Below are positions 3,358-27,768 of a stretch of DNA of 36,057 nucleotides, piece after piece; the stretch's first letter is position 1, and each line of letters opens with the position of its first letter. The notes beneath the pieces are model-generated. The model did not search any database. It was given only the letters and a program-made list of their open reading frames with translations, and had not been told where the DNA came from. Made by a program: the position numbers and the translations under genes. Source of the DNA: Deltaproteobacteria bacterium (GTDB lineage Bacteria > Desulfobacterota > Desulfobulbia > Desulfobulbales > Desulfurivibrionaceae); assembly GCA_026388735.1 (NCBI GenBank), contig JAPLJG010000014.1, positions 3,496 to 39,552 on the forward strand, read 5' to 3'.

Positions 3358-4491
3358 ATGGGAACACCTTCCTGGAATAGAGTGGAGATCGATCGTGCCG
3401 CCCTGCGCCATAATTTTCGGCAGGTGCGACAACTGATCGGCCCGGCGGTGGATATCTTGGCCGTGGTCAAGGCTGATGCCTATGGGCACGGCCTTGTCCC
3501 GGCAGCCCAGGCCTTTGCCGAGGCAGGGGCTACGGCCTTCGGCGTGGCTGAGGTCGAAGAAGGAGTGCGTCTGCGTCAGGTCGGAATAACCGGGCAGATC
3601 GTAATCATGCTTGGCGTTGACCGGCAAGGGGCAGCGGAGGCGGTGGCCCATGAGCTTACCCCCGTGGTCTATACCCTGGAAGCCCTGGAGTCTCTTGCCG
3701 CGCAGGCGGCAAAGGCCGGTTGCCGGAAAGGGGTGCAGATCAAGATCGATGTCGGCATGGGACGTCTTGGTCTTCTCCCCCACGAAATTGCGCCGTTTGT
3801 GGTTGCCTTGCGCCGGTTTCCCAATCTTTATCTTTCCGGGATTGCCAGCCATTTTCCCAAGGCCGATGTGGCAGGTGACGCCATTACGGAAGAGCAGTTT
3901 GCCCTGTTTCAGGAGCTGTTGAGCCAGGTGCAAGACGAAGGGGCGGGGCGGATCAGGCATATTGCCAATTCGGCCACCCTGATGCGCTACCCCGAGATGC
4001 GCTGTGACTTGGTGCGGCCGGGTATTTCCCTGTATGGCTGTTACCCGGCGGAGTGGCTGGGGCAGGCTTCCGCCTTGGATCTGCGGCCGGTCATGCGTTT
4101 TGTCACCACGGTGCTTCAGGTCAAGGAGGTTCCGGCGGGGCAGGGGATCAGCTATGGCCACAGGTATGTGACCGATCGGCCCACCAGGCTGGCGGTTTTG
4201 CCGGTGGGGTACGCTGACGGTTATCTGCGGCGAATGGCGGGCAAGGCCGAGGTGTTGCTGGCTGGGCAGCGGGCGCCGGTCCGTGGTATGATTTGCATGA
4301 ATGCCTGCATGGCCGATGTGACGGATATTCCTGGGGTCAAGGCCGGGGATGAAGCGGTGCTGCTTGGCTGTCAAGGAGCAGGGGAGATCAGGGCCGAGGA
4401 GATCGCCCGCTGGTCTGACACCATCAATTATGAGATTCTCTGTCTTTTCGGCTCCTGCAACCGGCAGGTGTATGTTGATCCTGTGAGCTGA
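3358..4491 (+). CDS. alr: alanine racemase
   Basis: PLP-dependent enzyme that interconverts L- and D-alanine, supplying D-Ala for peptidoglycan. 377 residues from ATG 3358; a TTG at 3349 is an alternative and neither has a strong ribosome site. The PLP lysine is Lys38 in AVVKADAYGHG. The phosphate-binding and second-base regions follow, with GMGRLG, RPGISLYG and the catalytic tyrosine in GISYGHRY, then MNACMADVTD in the C-terminal beta domain. Length and motif order are normal. The last bases overlap a copy of the right arm of the dispersed repeat described below. Confidence 0.95.
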   Translation: MGTPSWNRVEIDRAALRHNFRQVRQLIGPAVDILAVVKADAYGHGLVPAAQAFAEAGATAFGVAEVEEGVRLRQVGITGQIVIMLGVDRQGAAEAVAHELTPVVYTLEALESLAAQAAKAGCRKGVQIKIDVGMGRLGLLPHEIAPFVVALRRFPNLYLSGIASHFPKADVAGDAITEEQFALFQELLSQVQDEGAGRIRHIANSATLMRYPEMRCDLVRPGISLYGCYPAEWLGQASALDLRPVMRFVTTVLQVKEVPAGQGISYGHRYVTDRPTRLAVLPVGYADGYLRRMAGKAEVLLAGQRAPVRGMICMNACMADVTDIPGVKAGDEAVLLGCQGAGEIRAEEIARWSDTINYEILCLFGSCNRQVYVDPVS

Positions 4492-11475: not shown

Positions 11476-12630
11476 ATGAATAAACTGAAAGGCACAAGTT
11501 ATTCATCAACAGTCCCTAAAATCCTTTTTTCATCCCTGCTTGTCGCGGTCGTAGCCATCGGCATGCTCCATCTTTTTACCTCCGGCGATTGCCTCGTTTA
11601 TCACAACATCTACCGGCGGCTCAGCTATTTTCCCATTGTTTTGGGCGGCCTCTGGTTTGGCGTGGCCGGCGGGTTGGGCATCGCGGTGCTCTCCTCCATC
11701 GCCTTTATCCCCCACGTTCTCCTCTATGTAGGGCACGGACCGCAAGCATACCTCAGCGAACTAATGGAGATCGTCCTCTACCTCGCTGCCGGGCTGCTGG
11801 TCGGGGTGATCTCCGGGCGGCAGACCCGTCTGCGCGAACGCTACCAGCAGTTGTCCGAGAAACTGCAAGCCTCCTATGTCCGGCTCCATGATGAAACCGC
11901 CCAGCTCATTGAGGCGGAGACCCGGCTGGCCGCGGCGCAGAAATTCTCCGCCCTGGGCAAGCTGTCCGCTTCCCTGGCCCATGAGATAAAAAATCCCCTC
12001 GCCTCCATCAAGGGCACGGCGGAGATTCTCCGCGAAGAATTTCCCAGGGATCATCCCAAACGGGAGTTCGTGGATATCCTTTTTAAGGAAACAGGCCGCC
12101 TGCACGACACGGTGGAGGAAATCCTCCACTACTCCAAGGGGCGGCCCCAGGAACGGGAAGAGGCCACGGAGCCGCTGGCTGCGGTGGCCCGGCACGTTGG
12201 GGCACTGCTGGAAAGGCAGTTGCGGGAAAAACAGGTGCGTTTTCTCCTGCCGGAGAACGGCGAGGCCCAGCATCTGTTGGTGGAAAGCGCCAAGTTCTCC
12301 CAGGTGCTGTTGAACCTTGGTCTCAACGCCTTGGACGCGGTTCGGCCCGGCGGCCAGATATGGCTTCTGGTCGAAAACGGTGCGGACGGAGGCTGGCGGA
12401 TCGCTGTCTGCGACAATGGACCTGGGGTGCCTGAGGCGGAGAAAGAACGGATCTTCGAGCCGTTTTATTCCGGCAAGGCCGATGGCACCGGCCTTGGTCT
12501 GTTGATCAGCCGGAAAATCGTGGAAAGCTACGGCGGCAGCCTCCGGGCCACGGACCGTCCGGGAGGTGGGGCCTGTTTCGAGATTATCCTGCCCGCAAAA
12601 AACGGCGCAGGCCTTGAGCAGGCAGGATGA
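11476..12630 (+). CDS. membrane sensor histidine kinase
   Basis: 384 residues; partner of the adjacent sigma-54 activator. The N-terminus has four hydrophobic stretches (about 14-34, 50-66, 66-86, 96-114) with short loops and no large periplasmic domain, so it probably senses within or near the membrane. A coiled linker (about 118-155) leads to the HisKA H-box SLAHEIKNPLASIKG with phospho-acceptor His169. The HATPase_c domain has the N-box (NLGLNALDA, 280-288), DNGPG (313-317) and GTGLGL (337-342). The architecture resembles NtrB/ZraS-type kinases. ATG 11476 is preceded by AAAGGG. The signal is unknown. Confidence 0.92.
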   Translation: MNKLKGTSYSSTVPKILFSSLLVAVVAIGMLHLFTSGDCLVYHNIYRRLSYFPIVLGGLWFGVAGGLGIAVLSSIAFIPHVLLYVGHGPQAYLSELMEIVLYLAAGLLVGVISGRQTRLRERYQQLSEKLQASYVRLHDETAQLIEAETRLAAAQKFSALGKLSASLAHEIKNPLASIKGTAEILREEFPRDHPKREFVDILFKETGRLHDTVEEILHYSKGRPQEREEATEPLAAVARHVGALLERQLREKQVRFLLPENGEAQHLLVESAKFSQVLLNLGLNALDAVRPGGQIWLLVENGADGGWRIAVCDNGPGVPEAEKERIFEPFYSGKADGTGLGLLISRKIVESYGGSLRATDRPGGGACFEIILPAKNGAGLEQAG

Positions 12631-12640
12631 GGGCGATCGC

Positions 12641-13984
12641 ATGAAACCCCGGATACTTCTGATCGATGATGACGCAAGCCTGCGGCGGGTTACGGAGTAC
12701 AACCTGAGCAGCGCCGGATTTACCGTGCTGGGTGCGGCTTCGGGCAAGGAAGGGTTGGTGCTGTTTCGTAAGCACGACCCGGACCTGGTGATCACCGACG
12801 TGCAGCTTGGCGACCTGAACGGCTTGCAGATCCTGGCGGCGGTGAAAAAGGAGTCGCCCATTACCCCGGTGCTGGTGATCACGGCCTTCGGCTCCATCGA
12901 GCTGGCGGTTCAGGCCATGCAGGAAGGGGCCTTCACCTTTCTGGCCAAGCCTTTTGATCGGGAGGCCCTGCGGCTTTCCTGCCGGAAAGCCCTGGAGCTG
13001 CGGGAGCTGTATGAGCAGAAACAGCAGTTGAGCGGCGAGGTCAACCGGCTCACGGGCACCGAGGGCATGGAAACCGCCAACTCGGCCATGGCCGAGTTGC
13101 TCGACACGGCACGGCGTGCGGCCAACAGCGAAGCCACCGTCCTCATCGCTGGAGAATCTGGCACAGGCAAGGAAGTGCTGGCAAGGCTTATCCACCAGCA
13201 CAGTCCCAGGGTGCAAGGGCCCATGGTGGCGGTGAACTGCGCGGCCATCCCGGAGAACCTTCTGGAAAGCGAACTTTTCGGCCATGTCAAAGGCGCCTTT
13301 ACCGGGGCGGTGAGCAGCCGCAAGGGGCGATTCCAATCCGCCGCCGGTGGCACCCTGTTTTTGGATGAGATCGGTGAGTTGCGGCTGGACCTGCAGGCCA
13401 AGCTGCTCCGCGCCATTCAGGAGCGAGTGGTGGCGCCGGTGGGCGCGGATCAGCCGGAAGCGGTGGATGTCCGCCTGATTGCTGCTTCCAACCGGGATCT
13501 GTACGCAGCCATCGGCCAGGGAACCTTTCGGGAGGATCTCTACTACCGGTTGGGAGTTATTCCCCTGCATCTCCCGCCCCTGCGGGAACGTCGGGAGGAT
13601 ATCCCCGGTCTGGTGGCCCATTTTCTCATTAAGGTGGGTGCTCCCGCTGGAGTACGCTTTTCCGCCGGGGCCTTGGCCAGGCTCAAGGCCCATCTCTGGC
13701 CTGGCAATATCCGTGAGCTGCAAAATATTGTCGAGCGTGCGGTTATCCTTCGCAGGGGACAGCTCATCGAGGCAGAGGAGCTCCAGCTTGCTGCCACGCC
13801 CCAACCTGCAACACCAAACGGGATTCCGGAAATTCCGGATGAGGGACTCTCCCTGGAAGCGGTGGAGCAGGGGTTGATCAAAAAGGCCATGGCTAAGGCC
13901 AACGGCAATCGCTCCGAGGCTGCCCGCCTGCTCAAGATCCCGCGCCATGTTTTGATCTACCGCCTAGAAAAATTCAAACTCTAA
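12641..13984 (+). CDS. sigma-54-dependent response regulator (NtrC family)
   Basis: 447 residues, 10 bases after the kinase, with GAGGG upstream. Receiver domain 1-120 with acidic pocket DDD (10-11 region), phospho-acceptor Asp53 and Lys103. The AAA+ domain has Walker A GESGTGKE (171-178), the sigma-54 contact loop GAFTGA (218-223), Walker B TLFLDEIGE (238-246) and the arginine-finger region REDLYYRL. The C-terminal Fis-type helix-turn-helix is at about 405-447 (NRSEAARLLKIPRHVLIYRL). All elements needed for enhancer-dependent activation are present. Its likely target is the -24/-12 promoter at 14247-14262 via the palindromes at 14124-14158; this is inference from position. Confidence 0.95.
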   Translation: MKPRILLIDDDASLRRVTEYNLSSAGFTVLGAASGKEGLVLFRKHDPDLVITDVQLGDLNGLQILAAVKKESPITPVLVITAFGSIELAVQAMQEGAFTFLAKPFDREALRLSCRKALELRELYEQKQQLSGEVNRLTGTEGMETANSAMAELLDTARRAANSEATVLIAGESGTGKEVLARLIHQHSPRVQGPMVAVNCAAIPENLLESELFGHVKGAFTGAVSSRKGRFQSAAGGTLFLDEIGELRLDLQAKLLRAIQERVVAPVGADQPEAVDVRLIAASNRDLYAAIGQGTFREDLYYRLGVIPLHLPPLRERREDIPGLVAHFLIKVGAPAGVRFSAGALARLKAHLWPGNIRELQNIVERAVILRRGQLIEAEELQLAATPQPATPNGIPEIPDEGLSLEAVEQGLIKKAMAKANGNRSEAARLLKIPRHVLIYRLEKFKL

Positions 13985-14104
13985 GGAACTGCCTGGCAGC
14001 ACCACATCTGCTTTGTCATCGGCCTACTCGTGTGCAATAGCACACTTCGTCGGCCTCTTCCGCGCATCTGCGGCAGCAGCGAAGCGGCGCTGCCGAACAG
14101 TTCC
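13985..14104. repeat. dispersed structured repeat, copy A (120 bases)
   Basis: Begins right after the stop codon of the response regulator. Outer stem GGAACTG (13985-13991) / CAGTTCC (14098-14104), extended by AA/TT; a 2x2 internal loop CC/AA; second stem GGCAGC (13995-14000) / GCTGCC (14089-14094). Inside are a GGCC.../...GGCC helix capped by GTGC-AATA-GCAC and a CCGC-GCATCT-GCGG hairpin. Compared with the other two copies, both sides of each stem have changed together. No T tract follows. Confidence 0.85.
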
Positions 14105-22237: not shown

Positions 22238-22267
22238 GGTAATAGGCGTCCTGGTTGTGTGTGCCCC

Positions 22268-22419
22268 GTAACTATCCAGCAGCACCGCATCTGGTTTGTT
22301 ATCGGCCTGCTTGCATACCAATGTATAGCTCCCAGGCCTCTGCCGCGCATCTGCGGCACTGCTGAATAGTTACGCTACCGTGGTTTCTCTCACGTTCTGG
22401 CGCCAAGCTGGATAGTTAC
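22268..22419. repeat. dispersed structured repeat, copy B
   Basis: Outer stem GTAACTA (22268-22274) / TAGTTAC (22367-22373); internal loop TC/AA; second stem CAGCAG (22277-22282) / CTGCTG (22359-22364). Inner helix GGCCTG/CAGGCC capped by ATAC-CAAT-GTAT, and TGCCGC-GCATCT-GCGGCA. A second right arm GCTGGATAGTTAC (22407-22419) is a perfect 13-base complement of the left arm (22268-22280), so two alternative closings are possible. It lies between the ribF start and the tRNA-Leu promoter. Confidence 0.85.
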
Positions 22420-22499
22420 GTGCCCACACAATAGGCGACAACCTTGAAAAGGTCAAGCTGCCGCCGAGATGGATTTTTTGGGGCCGTGGGTAATTTGTC

Positions 22500-26664: not shown

Positions 26665-27591
26665 GTGAATAAGATACTGCGTGGTGTTGGGATAGCGGTG
26701 GTGGTTGCGGCGGGAGTGGCGCTGTTCAATGCGTTTTTTATTCTGCCCGAGGGGCAGCAGGTGGTGATCACCCAGTTCGGCCGTCCGGTGGGCAAGCCCA
26801 TCACCGAGGCTGGTTTGCAATTTAAGGTTCCCTTTATCCAGGATGTGACTTTTTTCGACAAGAGAATTCTCATCTGGGACGGGGATCCCAATCAGGTTCC
26901 AACCAATGATAAGACCTTTGTCTATCTGGATGTCACTGCCCGTTGGCGCATCTCCGATGCCCTGGTTTTCTTGCAGGCGGTCAACAACGAGCAACGGGCC
27001 CAGACCATCCTCGATGATATCATCGATGGCACGGTCCGGGATTTGGTCAACAAGAATGACCTGGTTGAGATCATCCGCAGTTCGGATTGGGATCCGGAGG
27101 GCATGGGGTTTGGACCTGCGGGCAAAGAAGATCAGATCCACTATGGTCGGGATAAGATTACGGCCCTGATCCACGCCAACGCCTCCAAGGTTACGCCCAA
27201 GTACGGTATTGAACTGGTGGATGTGATGTTCAAGCGGGTCAACTATATCGACACGGTCCAGCAGCGCGTGTACGAGCGGATGATTTCCGAGCGGAAACGG
27301 ATCGCGGCGGAAAAGCGCTCCACCGGCGAGGGGTTGAAATCGGAGATTCTCGGTAAGCTTGAGCGGGAATTGCGAGAGGTGAGCTCCCTGGCTGTCCGCG
27401 AGACCCAGAAGATCAAAGGCAAAGCAGACGGCGAGGCCTCCAAGATTTATGCGGAGGCCTACAATCAGGACCCCGAATTCTACGCCTTTTCCAAGAGCAT
27501 GGATGCCTACCGGCTCACCATGGGACAAAACACCCGGCTGGTGATTTCCCCGGACTCGCCGTTTTATCGCTACCTGAAAACCCTCAAATAA
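26665..27591 (+). CDS. hflC: FtsH protease modulator HflC
   Basis: 308 residues. GTG start at 26665 with AGGGGA upstream. N-terminal membrane anchor (about 5-25), SPFH domain beginning ILPEGQQVVITQFGRPVG, then a coiled coil (EKRSTGEGLKSEILGKLERELREVSS) and the conserved KGKADGEASKIYAEAYNQDPEFYAFSK... region near the C-terminus, which ends PDSPFYRYLKTLK. Partner of HflK. Its stop codon is two bases before repeat copy C, whose outer stem runs into the last bases of the gene. Confidence 0.95.
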   Translation: MNKILRGVGIAVVVAAGVALFNAFFILPEGQQVVITQFGRPVGKPITEAGLQFKVPFIQDVTFFDKRILIWDGDPNQVPTNDKTFVYLDVTARWRISDALVFLQAVNNEQRAQTILDDIIDGTVRDLVNKNDLVEIIRSSDWDPEGMGFGPAGKEDQIHYGRDKITALIHANASKVTPKYGIELVDVMFKRVNYIDTVQQRVYERMISERKRIAAEKRSTGEGLKSEILGKLERELREVSSLAVRETQKIKGKADGEASKIYAEAYNQDPEFYAFSKSMDAYRLTMGQNTRLVISPDSPFYRYLKTLK

Positions 27592-27593
27592 CT

Positions 27594-27768
27594 GTAACTG
27601 CCCAGCAGCACCGCATCTGCTTCGCAGTCTCGCTATGCTCGCTTAGCTGTCATCGGTCGGCTCATGTGCAATAGCACGTTTCGCCGGCCTCTTCCGCGCA
27701 TCTGCGGCACTGCTGAACAGTTACAGTTTGGGGTATAGCCTCTTTTTCGTGCTGCGCTGGACAGTTAC
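27594..27768. repeat. dispersed structured repeat, copy C (longest)
   Basis: Outer stem GTAACTG (27594-27600) / CAGTTAC (27718-27724), extended to 11 bp by flanking AACT/AGTT; internal loop CC/AA; second stem CAGCAG (27603-27608) / CTGCTG (27710-27715). Inner helix GGTCGGC/GCCGGCC capped by GTGC-AATA-GCAC, then CCGC-GCATCT-GCGG. A 26-base insert relative to copies A and B lies after GCATCTGCTTC. A second right arm GCTGGACAGTTAC (27756-27768) pairs with the left arm with one mismatch. It fills the gap between hflC and a convergent gene. Confidence 0.88.

Follow-up and report, generated by a model that had tools for sequence, protein, structure and literature searches.

A MITE-like hairpin repeat with compensating arms, frequent at stop codons, in the Desulfobulbales

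The window analyzed here, a stretch of 36,057 nucleotides from a deltaproteobacterium of the family Desulfurivibrionaceae, contains three intergenic repeats that share one architecture. They raise the question of what kind of element they represent and of what keeps their arms complementary. All three were recovered at the coordinates given by a first-pass annotation made from the sequence alone, which had read them as a structured RNA family or a REP/RAYT-like mobile element.

The repeats of the window and their fold

Copy A is a hairpin of 120 nt on the minus strand (13985..14104), which includes an optional 14-nt module and has no recognizable tail. It was found in the stop-adjacent orientation, immediately 3' of the stop codon of a plus-strand gene (12566..13984) read from its sequence as an NtrC-type sigma-54 response regulator. 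Copy B, flanked by a tRNA and by the 5' end of a ribF-like gene (also named by reading the sequence), includes a 106-nt hairpin of the short form with a variant apical stem ATAC/GTAT (22268..22373, minus strand) and a tail (22374..22419, minus strand), which reads GTAACTATCCAGCTTGGCGCC... on the minus strand and has the left terminal repeat at its outer end. It is flanked by a candidate worn target duplication (22261..22267 GTGCCCC and 22420-22426 GTGCCCA, matching by eye at 6 of 7 positions), where the criteria for tail and duplication come from other copies. Copy C is composed of a 131-nt hairpin (27594..27724, minus strand), which has an optional 25-27-nt module but not the 14-nt one, and a tail (27725..27768, minus strand), and no target duplication was recognizable around it by eye. 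Its hairpin lies 2 nt past the stop codon of an HflC-like membrane protein gene (26665..27591, plus strand, named by reading the sequence), again in the stop-adjacent orientation. The outer limits first drawn for B and C were correct, but each of these copies is a hairpin plus a separate tail of 44-46 nt.

The outer arms of the three copies differ and yet remain complementary, as first noticed. The architecture had been assigned to the plus strand, but the minus strand is preferred and folds better in all 40 aligned copies of the same genome. On the minus strand, the consensus is one long helix starting GTAACTG-UU-CAGCAG-UG-CC, with a symmetric AGAU/AGAU loop, a conserved AAGAGG...CCGAUGAC internal loop, and an apical stem. 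The core is 105-107 nt long, and some copies contain the 25-27-nt and/or the 14-nt module. What had been described as a 2x2 loop (YC/AA) corresponds to U·G or U-A pairs within the long helix. What appears on the plus strand as another loop (CA/CA) is a tandem U·G/G·U. Similarly, the two GCATCTGC motifs, previously placed in a single-stranded part and a hairpin loop, are both sides of the symmetric internal loop. Kink-turns consist of tandem G·A pairs beside a 3-nt bulge and are bound by L7Ae-type proteins; the AAGAGG...CCGAUGAC internal loop appears kink-turn-like when the consensus is read by eye.

An alignment of 35 copies from the genome of the window (38 pairs) included 18 pairs that vary on both sides, and 96.2% of its cells were paired: 1,118 were Watson-Crick, 160 were G·T, 22 were A·C, 29 were other combinations, and one was a gap. 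Loci L012 and L028, which have internal deletions, were left out of the alignments of this genome, and L007, L015, L035, L037, and L040 were left out of the final alignment and the covariance model. Wobble cells numbered 160 on the minus strand against 22 on the plus strand, and still 74 against 22 when pairs 9, 16, and 17 were excluded (p = 9e-8). The ratio of G·T to A·C differed little between convergent (22:5) and unidirectional (36:9) gene settings. Since this one-strand bias is independent of the direction of neighboring genes, it was assigned to a step of the mobile phase in which the element would be single-stranded, as RNA or ssDNA. Relative to the upstream gene, the strand that folds better is the antisense one, which is unexpected for a hairpin of a 3' UTR.

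Among 106 hairpins identified in the 98 loci searched, 33 of the 38 pairs changed on both sides and 96.3% of the cells were paired, in an alignment fitted to the structure of the model and hence biased towards it. The 574 both-sided cells compared with 142 in shuffles, and covariation as observed was reached by none of 500 shuffles for either the 35 copies or the 106 hairpins. The shuffle control ignores relatedness; when relatedness was kept and the partner was slid by 1-3 columns, the count of both-sided cells for the 106 hairpins fell from 574 to 35-74. Because the alignment leans to the model and the shuffles disregard relatedness, the strongest evidence is the comparison of orthologous sites. 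With covariation above shuffles and arm changes that are largely compensatory, the proposal that fold rather than sequence is conserved was upheld.

Size and distribution of the family

Far more than three copies were found in the genome of the window by both BLAST and covariance model. A BLAST search with copy C identified at least 51 pieces at no fewer than 40 places (best 40 of 70 candidates). The model, built from the 35 copies, gave 87 matches, which represent about 62 distinct places after removal of opposite-strand duplicates by hand (150 of 1,954 candidates scored). In the complete relative G019, a single contig of 3,097,763 bases, the element occupied at least 143 places.

By DNA search, the element was detected in 43 of 58 genomes (that of the window counted), including all 17 of its genus. 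The model search was positive in 18 of 18 genomes, with one to 144 matches each, where the genomes had been picked for having a DNA match and eight other DNA-positive genomes outside the genus were not included; two of the 18, G057 and G054, had 84 and 53 matches, respectively. A GTDB scan with the inner core of the element yielded at least 107 stretches, and the 80 listed titles named Desulfobulbaceae, Desulfurivibrio, Desulfobia, Desulfatifera, Deltaproteobacteria, or Proteobacteria. Across a sample of the phylum, nine of 198 genomes matched (E <= 1e-5, strict filters). Six of these were outside the order, and three of the six (L456-L458) clearly share the fold. Two weak matches of about 37 bits in other families of the phylum (L460 and L461) contain AGATGCGAGGAAGGAC ... 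TGACAA(C/A)GCAGATG with different outer arms, and possibly represent a sister repeat family. No match to one 207-base query was found among plasmids and phages.

The element had not been recognized as a named RNA family, and the Rfam scans agree. At gathering thresholds, a tRNA was the sole family found in the window, and no score for the repeat reached gathering level in the window or in one copy each from L020, L117, and L461. Permissive scans gave no matches for L020 (a copy from the same genome) or L461 (a distant copy), and six sub-threshold matches, mostly to miRNA hairpin models, for L117 (a G019 copy).

The mobile unit and its position at stop codons

An intact copy is about 150 bp long and includes a tail of 43-54 nt and a hairpin of about 106 nt, with GTAA/TTAC ends and an 8-bp target duplication. 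Read on the minus strand, the duplication is followed by the tail beginning GTAA..., the imperfect hairpin ending ...TTAC, and the second copy of the duplication. The tail, upstream of the hairpin in this reading, starts as the hairpin does (GTAACTATCCAGC..., GTAACCGTTCACC..., GTAACCACTCACAGG...). Perfect 8-mers around tail and hairpin were found in 18 of 156 copies against 0.78 expected from shuffled partners, and when one mismatch was allowed, a duplication anywhere upstream was found in 42 of the 156 against 10.4 expected; this set was compiled without L150, which is truncated by the end of its contig, without some matches that were repeated or on the opposite strand, and without a few weak or cut ones. 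Examined loci totaling 1.3 Mb, among which overlaps may cause a place to be counted twice, contained 61 GTAA..TTAC-type ends with a duplication, and 47 of these were spaced 150-159 bp apart. Near-identical units recur in the relative G043, where the duplication was perfect or had a single mismatch in 15 of 18 analyzed copies (two more of its 20 copies, L272 and L273, are cut at contig ends).

Empty sites were observed as well. Copy #21 of G019 has one clean empty site in the relative G024, and the element is also absent at the G024 site of copy #52. For copies #0, #16, and #17 of the genome of the window, all with a duplication, relatives were found without a hairpin at the site. The unit is short, multi-copy, and without coding capacity, and has terminal inverted repeats and a target duplication; it is a MITE-like, non-autonomous element. 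A longer, gene-carrying version with an exact 8-bp duplication was not found upstream of the 156 copies in the flanks examined, and the 1.3 Mb of loci likewise yielded none with the same ends. The 71 copies of G019 showed no obvious replication-strand bias (21:20 and 11:19 by half, with the origin assumed at position 1). Two sites in G024 differ from their G019 counterparts in other ways: L406 (site #65) has three tandem hairpins against one in G019, and L399 (site #37), where G019 has a tailed copy, includes a tailed element of another subfamily with an apparent duplication of its own, as if the site had been struck twice.

No transposase was tied to the element in the genomes and loci searched. 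An IS66-type enzyme is the best guess for its mobilization, where the likeness of the ends is only suggestive. IS66-type insertion sequences in L247 and L250 have GTAA ends and 8-bp duplications, and IS66 ends in G024 and G019 include GTAAGCGCTCAGCA, which is close to the hairpin end GTAAGCGTTCAGCA. Unlike IS66, the present element has no DDE gene, and the likeness of the ends extends over only about 14 nt. The IS66 DDE gene was not found in the genome of the window, and it occurred in six of 30 relatives (two as fragments) and in none of 16 of the genus, among draft genomes that may lack it. IS66 was rejected as the parent of the element, since its ends are alike but its gene was not found in most hosts and no hairpin was found in the five IS66 loci.

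The position of the element relative to genes was assessed for 225 distinct copies (46 from the genome of the window, 108 from other loci, and 71 from G019), with flanking genes called by a simple codon-usage ORF script rather than a gene caller. Where the duplication had at most one mismatch, the hairpin end faced a stop codon in 37 copies and a start codon in 28 (two unknown). Where it had three or more mismatches, these counts were 93 and 17 (four unknown; Fisher p = 1.3e-4). Nearly all of the stop-facing copies in this second group, 88 of 93, were located at -6 to +10 nt from the stop. Similarly, the 32 tail-less copies of G019 faced stop and start codons at 31:1, and the 39 tail-bearing copies at 24:13 (two unknown). 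The stop codon was at offset -4 in 47 of 146 stop-adjacent copies, and 40 of the 47 start with GTAA, so that the TAA of the hairpin itself serves as the stop codon. At the empty sites #8 and #15, a native stop codon was seen by eye at the same place.

In duplication-bearing copies, 29 of 36 ends were stop-adjacent against 15.9 expected from a model of uniform insertion, and their tail side was stop-adjacent in eight of 24. For duplication-less copies the count was 84 of 89 against 18.0 expected, a value that is on the low side because it was computed without subtracting the lost tail. Since copies with an intact duplication are already enriched at stop codons, target choice could contribute to the pattern. 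The 18 copies of G043, the youngest-looking, included three ends that face a recognized stop codon, none of which adjoins it, five that face a start codon, and ten without a recognized gene. Given that none of these ends adjoins a stop codon, the position of other copies at stops may be a matter of survival or age and not of function. A run of at least five T within 60 nt past the hairpin was found in eight of 34 stop copies of G019 against 3.7 in shuffles, and in 23 of 57 others against 6.6, with part of these runs derived from the tail. With a signal this weak, an intrinsic terminator formed by the T-run was set aside.

Change at orthologous sites and the competing explanations

Tail-less, stop-facing hairpins of G019 were compared with a part of G024, where both flanks matched one place in the latter. 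Six such sites retain the hairpin in G024 (#18, #39, #56, #64, #65, and #67, with the third of the three tandem copies used for #65), and five are hairpin-free (#3, #4, #6, #8, and #15), which implies a fast turnover. At site #23, which faces a start codon, G024 contains a different tailed element. Among the 132 outer pairs of the six retained sites, 116 were the same, 11 had changed on both sides and were still paired, four had changed on one side and were still paired, and one was broken. The 11 two-sided changes compare with about 1.4 expected if the arms changed independently.

Within the genus of the window, 18 of 46 copies had a hairpin at the same site of a relative in the loci examined, giving 25 comparisons that are not all independent, as relatives recur among them. 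Unchanged pairs numbered 298. Two-sided changes left 19 pairs complementary and two unpaired, a total of 21 against 5.7 expected. One-sided changes retained pairing in 28 cases and involved an unpaired state in 22, six of which were in the misaligned row #39; six cells were gaps. At these sites G·T was again favored over A·C (32:8). The arms were not flawless throughout: in the 88 stop-adjacent, duplication-less copies, 45 of 1,320 outer cells were A·C or unpaired, and in G043 this was the case for 21 of 270, partly as an effect of register.

One stem pair was particularly variable. Pair 5 of the G019 hairpins occurred as T-A (31), A-T (24), G-C (10), and C-G (6), and was complementary in 71 of 71 copies (shuffled mean 23.5), while its neighbors, pairs 4 and 6, were invariant. 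Subfamilies account for part of this variety; the A form seems to go with one apical loop when judged by eye. At some orthologous sites, the interiors of the hairpins differed where the outer arms agreed. For example, copy L082 and its counterpart L163 in a relative have different apical stems, and the modules of copy L005 are absent from its counterpart L053. Such mosaics suggest that interiors may be exchanged between dispersed copies.

On balance, the explanation that we favor is a MITE, spread across the order, whose hairpin has been retained time and again as a structure at the 3' end of the upstream transcript. An enzyme acting in trans, cutting at the GTAA/TTAC ends and leaving 8-bp duplications, would mobilize an element of about 150 bp, and insertions of this element would survive for the most part at the borders of genes. 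Where the hairpin end meets a stop codon, the copy would persist while its tail and duplication decay, and its pairing would then be preserved through compensatory changes. The host probably uses such a hairpin at the 3' end of the transcript, where it may block 3' decay, or help termination or ribosome release, a role that has been proposed for REP elements. Within this account, the data show the unit with its duplication and an empty site, the position at stop codons with its orientation bias, and compensation at orthologous sites, while the enzyme, the sequence of events, host selection, and a role at the RNA level are inferred. A more elaborate version, which we regard as rather doubtful in its entirety, describes a transposon with an 8-bp duplication that moves via one folded strand (RNA or ssDNA) with kink-turn-like loops. 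It would have seeded hundreds of domesticated, stop-codon-carrying 3'-end control hairpins throughout the order, with interiors exchanged and outer arms drifting locally by compensatory pairs.

The competing account of a purely selfish MITE, in which the hairpin would be for transposition only, is unlikely, with mobility itself clear from the duplications, the unit spacing, and the empty site. The placement at stop codons would then be survivor bias in compact genomes, as the G043 copies would allow, although few of these were scorable, and the G·T to A·C bias, which does not follow transcription, is consistent with this account. The arms would be kept complementary either because mobility is under selection or because template switching corrects quasi-palindromes. 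However, copies that have lost both tail and duplication stay paired while their arm letters change at orthologous sites, and the orientation bias is greater in the duplication-less copies. In addition, correction at the DNA level would erase the conserved tandem G·U and would not favor G·T over A·C.

Two systems with preferred strands were also considered. The attC sites of integrons are hairpins after a stop codon with one preferred strand, the bottom strand recombined by IntI, which is antisense to the gene, and a fold that is kept while the sequence is free; the present hairpins match this placement and strand logic. Integron integrases were above the cut-off in nine of 17 genomes, including that of the window (G000:C45:2150-3076). 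However, eight of the 17, G057 and G054 among them, had none above the cut-off, and the 14 integrase loci (191 kb) contained one strong copy, also seen on the other strand, and one weak copy. The hairpins are attached to ordinary genes rather than cassette arrays and contain no GTTRRRY/RYYYAAC boxes when compared by eye with this motif. It is scarcely credible that they are dispersed attC sites, and they are not those of the integrons in these genomes. Two side observations come from integron loci: L443 contains a candidate cassette-type repeat at 3535 and 4788, and group II intron domains (Rfam RF02001 and RF01998) were found at L442:5635-5928, about 2.4 kb from the integron integrase of G019.

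Mobilization of a REP-like element as ssDNA by a RAYT (Y1) transposase appears highly improbable. Y1 proteins were found in all 17 genomes searched, and one strand of the hairpin is preferred, as this mechanism would have it. However, none of the seven RAYT-like Y1 loci (L431-L437, assigned by frame length and in three cases also by eye) carries the hairpin within flanks of up to 1.5 kb. Among the matches listed for G019, the shortest distance between a hairpin and one of the two Y1 genes is 3.2 kb, and the sole Y1 protein found in the genome of the window is of the IS200 type, at a locus without the hairpin. Among 11 Y1 loci, L430 alone has a tailed copy, which adjoins a broken IS200-type gene. 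No target duplication is known from the Y1/RAYT mechanism, whereas the mobile form here has one of 8 bp. Of the original interpretation, a dispersed element with a conserved fold was thus retained, but REP/RAYT mobilization was rejected. Separately, in L041 (G000:C71), a sequence that looks tRNA-like by eye is closely followed by a gene for an IS200-type transposase.

Correia/NEMIS, RUP, and ERIC elements are bacterial MITEs with hairpins used by the host. The present element resembles them as a non-autonomous unit of 100-160 bp with terminal repeats and a target duplication, and as an intergenic, high-copy element that folds as RNA. It differs in its 8-bp duplication, its third, internal terminal-like repeat (the tail plus hairpin arrangement), its one-strand wobble, its strong arm covariation, its stop-codon placement, and its spread through an order. 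The placement at stop codons has a precedent in REPs, which are described as palindromic, high-copy repeats of 20-40 bp near 3' ends, in the GTAG and CGTC superfamilies, where the GTAG terminus often supplies the stop codon (PMC3733652). That codon is TAG in REPs and TAA in the present hairpin, which at 106 nt is much larger and whose terminal tetranucleotide GTAA, unlike the GTAG/CGTC tag, lies within the stem. Palindromic multicopy families are also reported in a Geobacter genome paper (PMC2996986). Within the part of the open-access literature covered, we found no description of a MITE with an 8-bp duplication whose remnants at stop codons are hairpins that evolve by compensation.

The same genomes contain both tailed, duplication-flanked mobile copies and stop-codon copies with compensating arms, and the family offers a large natural experiment on the possible passage from selfish hairpin to host element. 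Its stem pairs, which change and remain complementary, permit a direct test of selection against hairpin-templated repair. The repeat, for which no Rfam family reached threshold, marks a probable genome-wide 3'-end feature in the Desulfobulbales.
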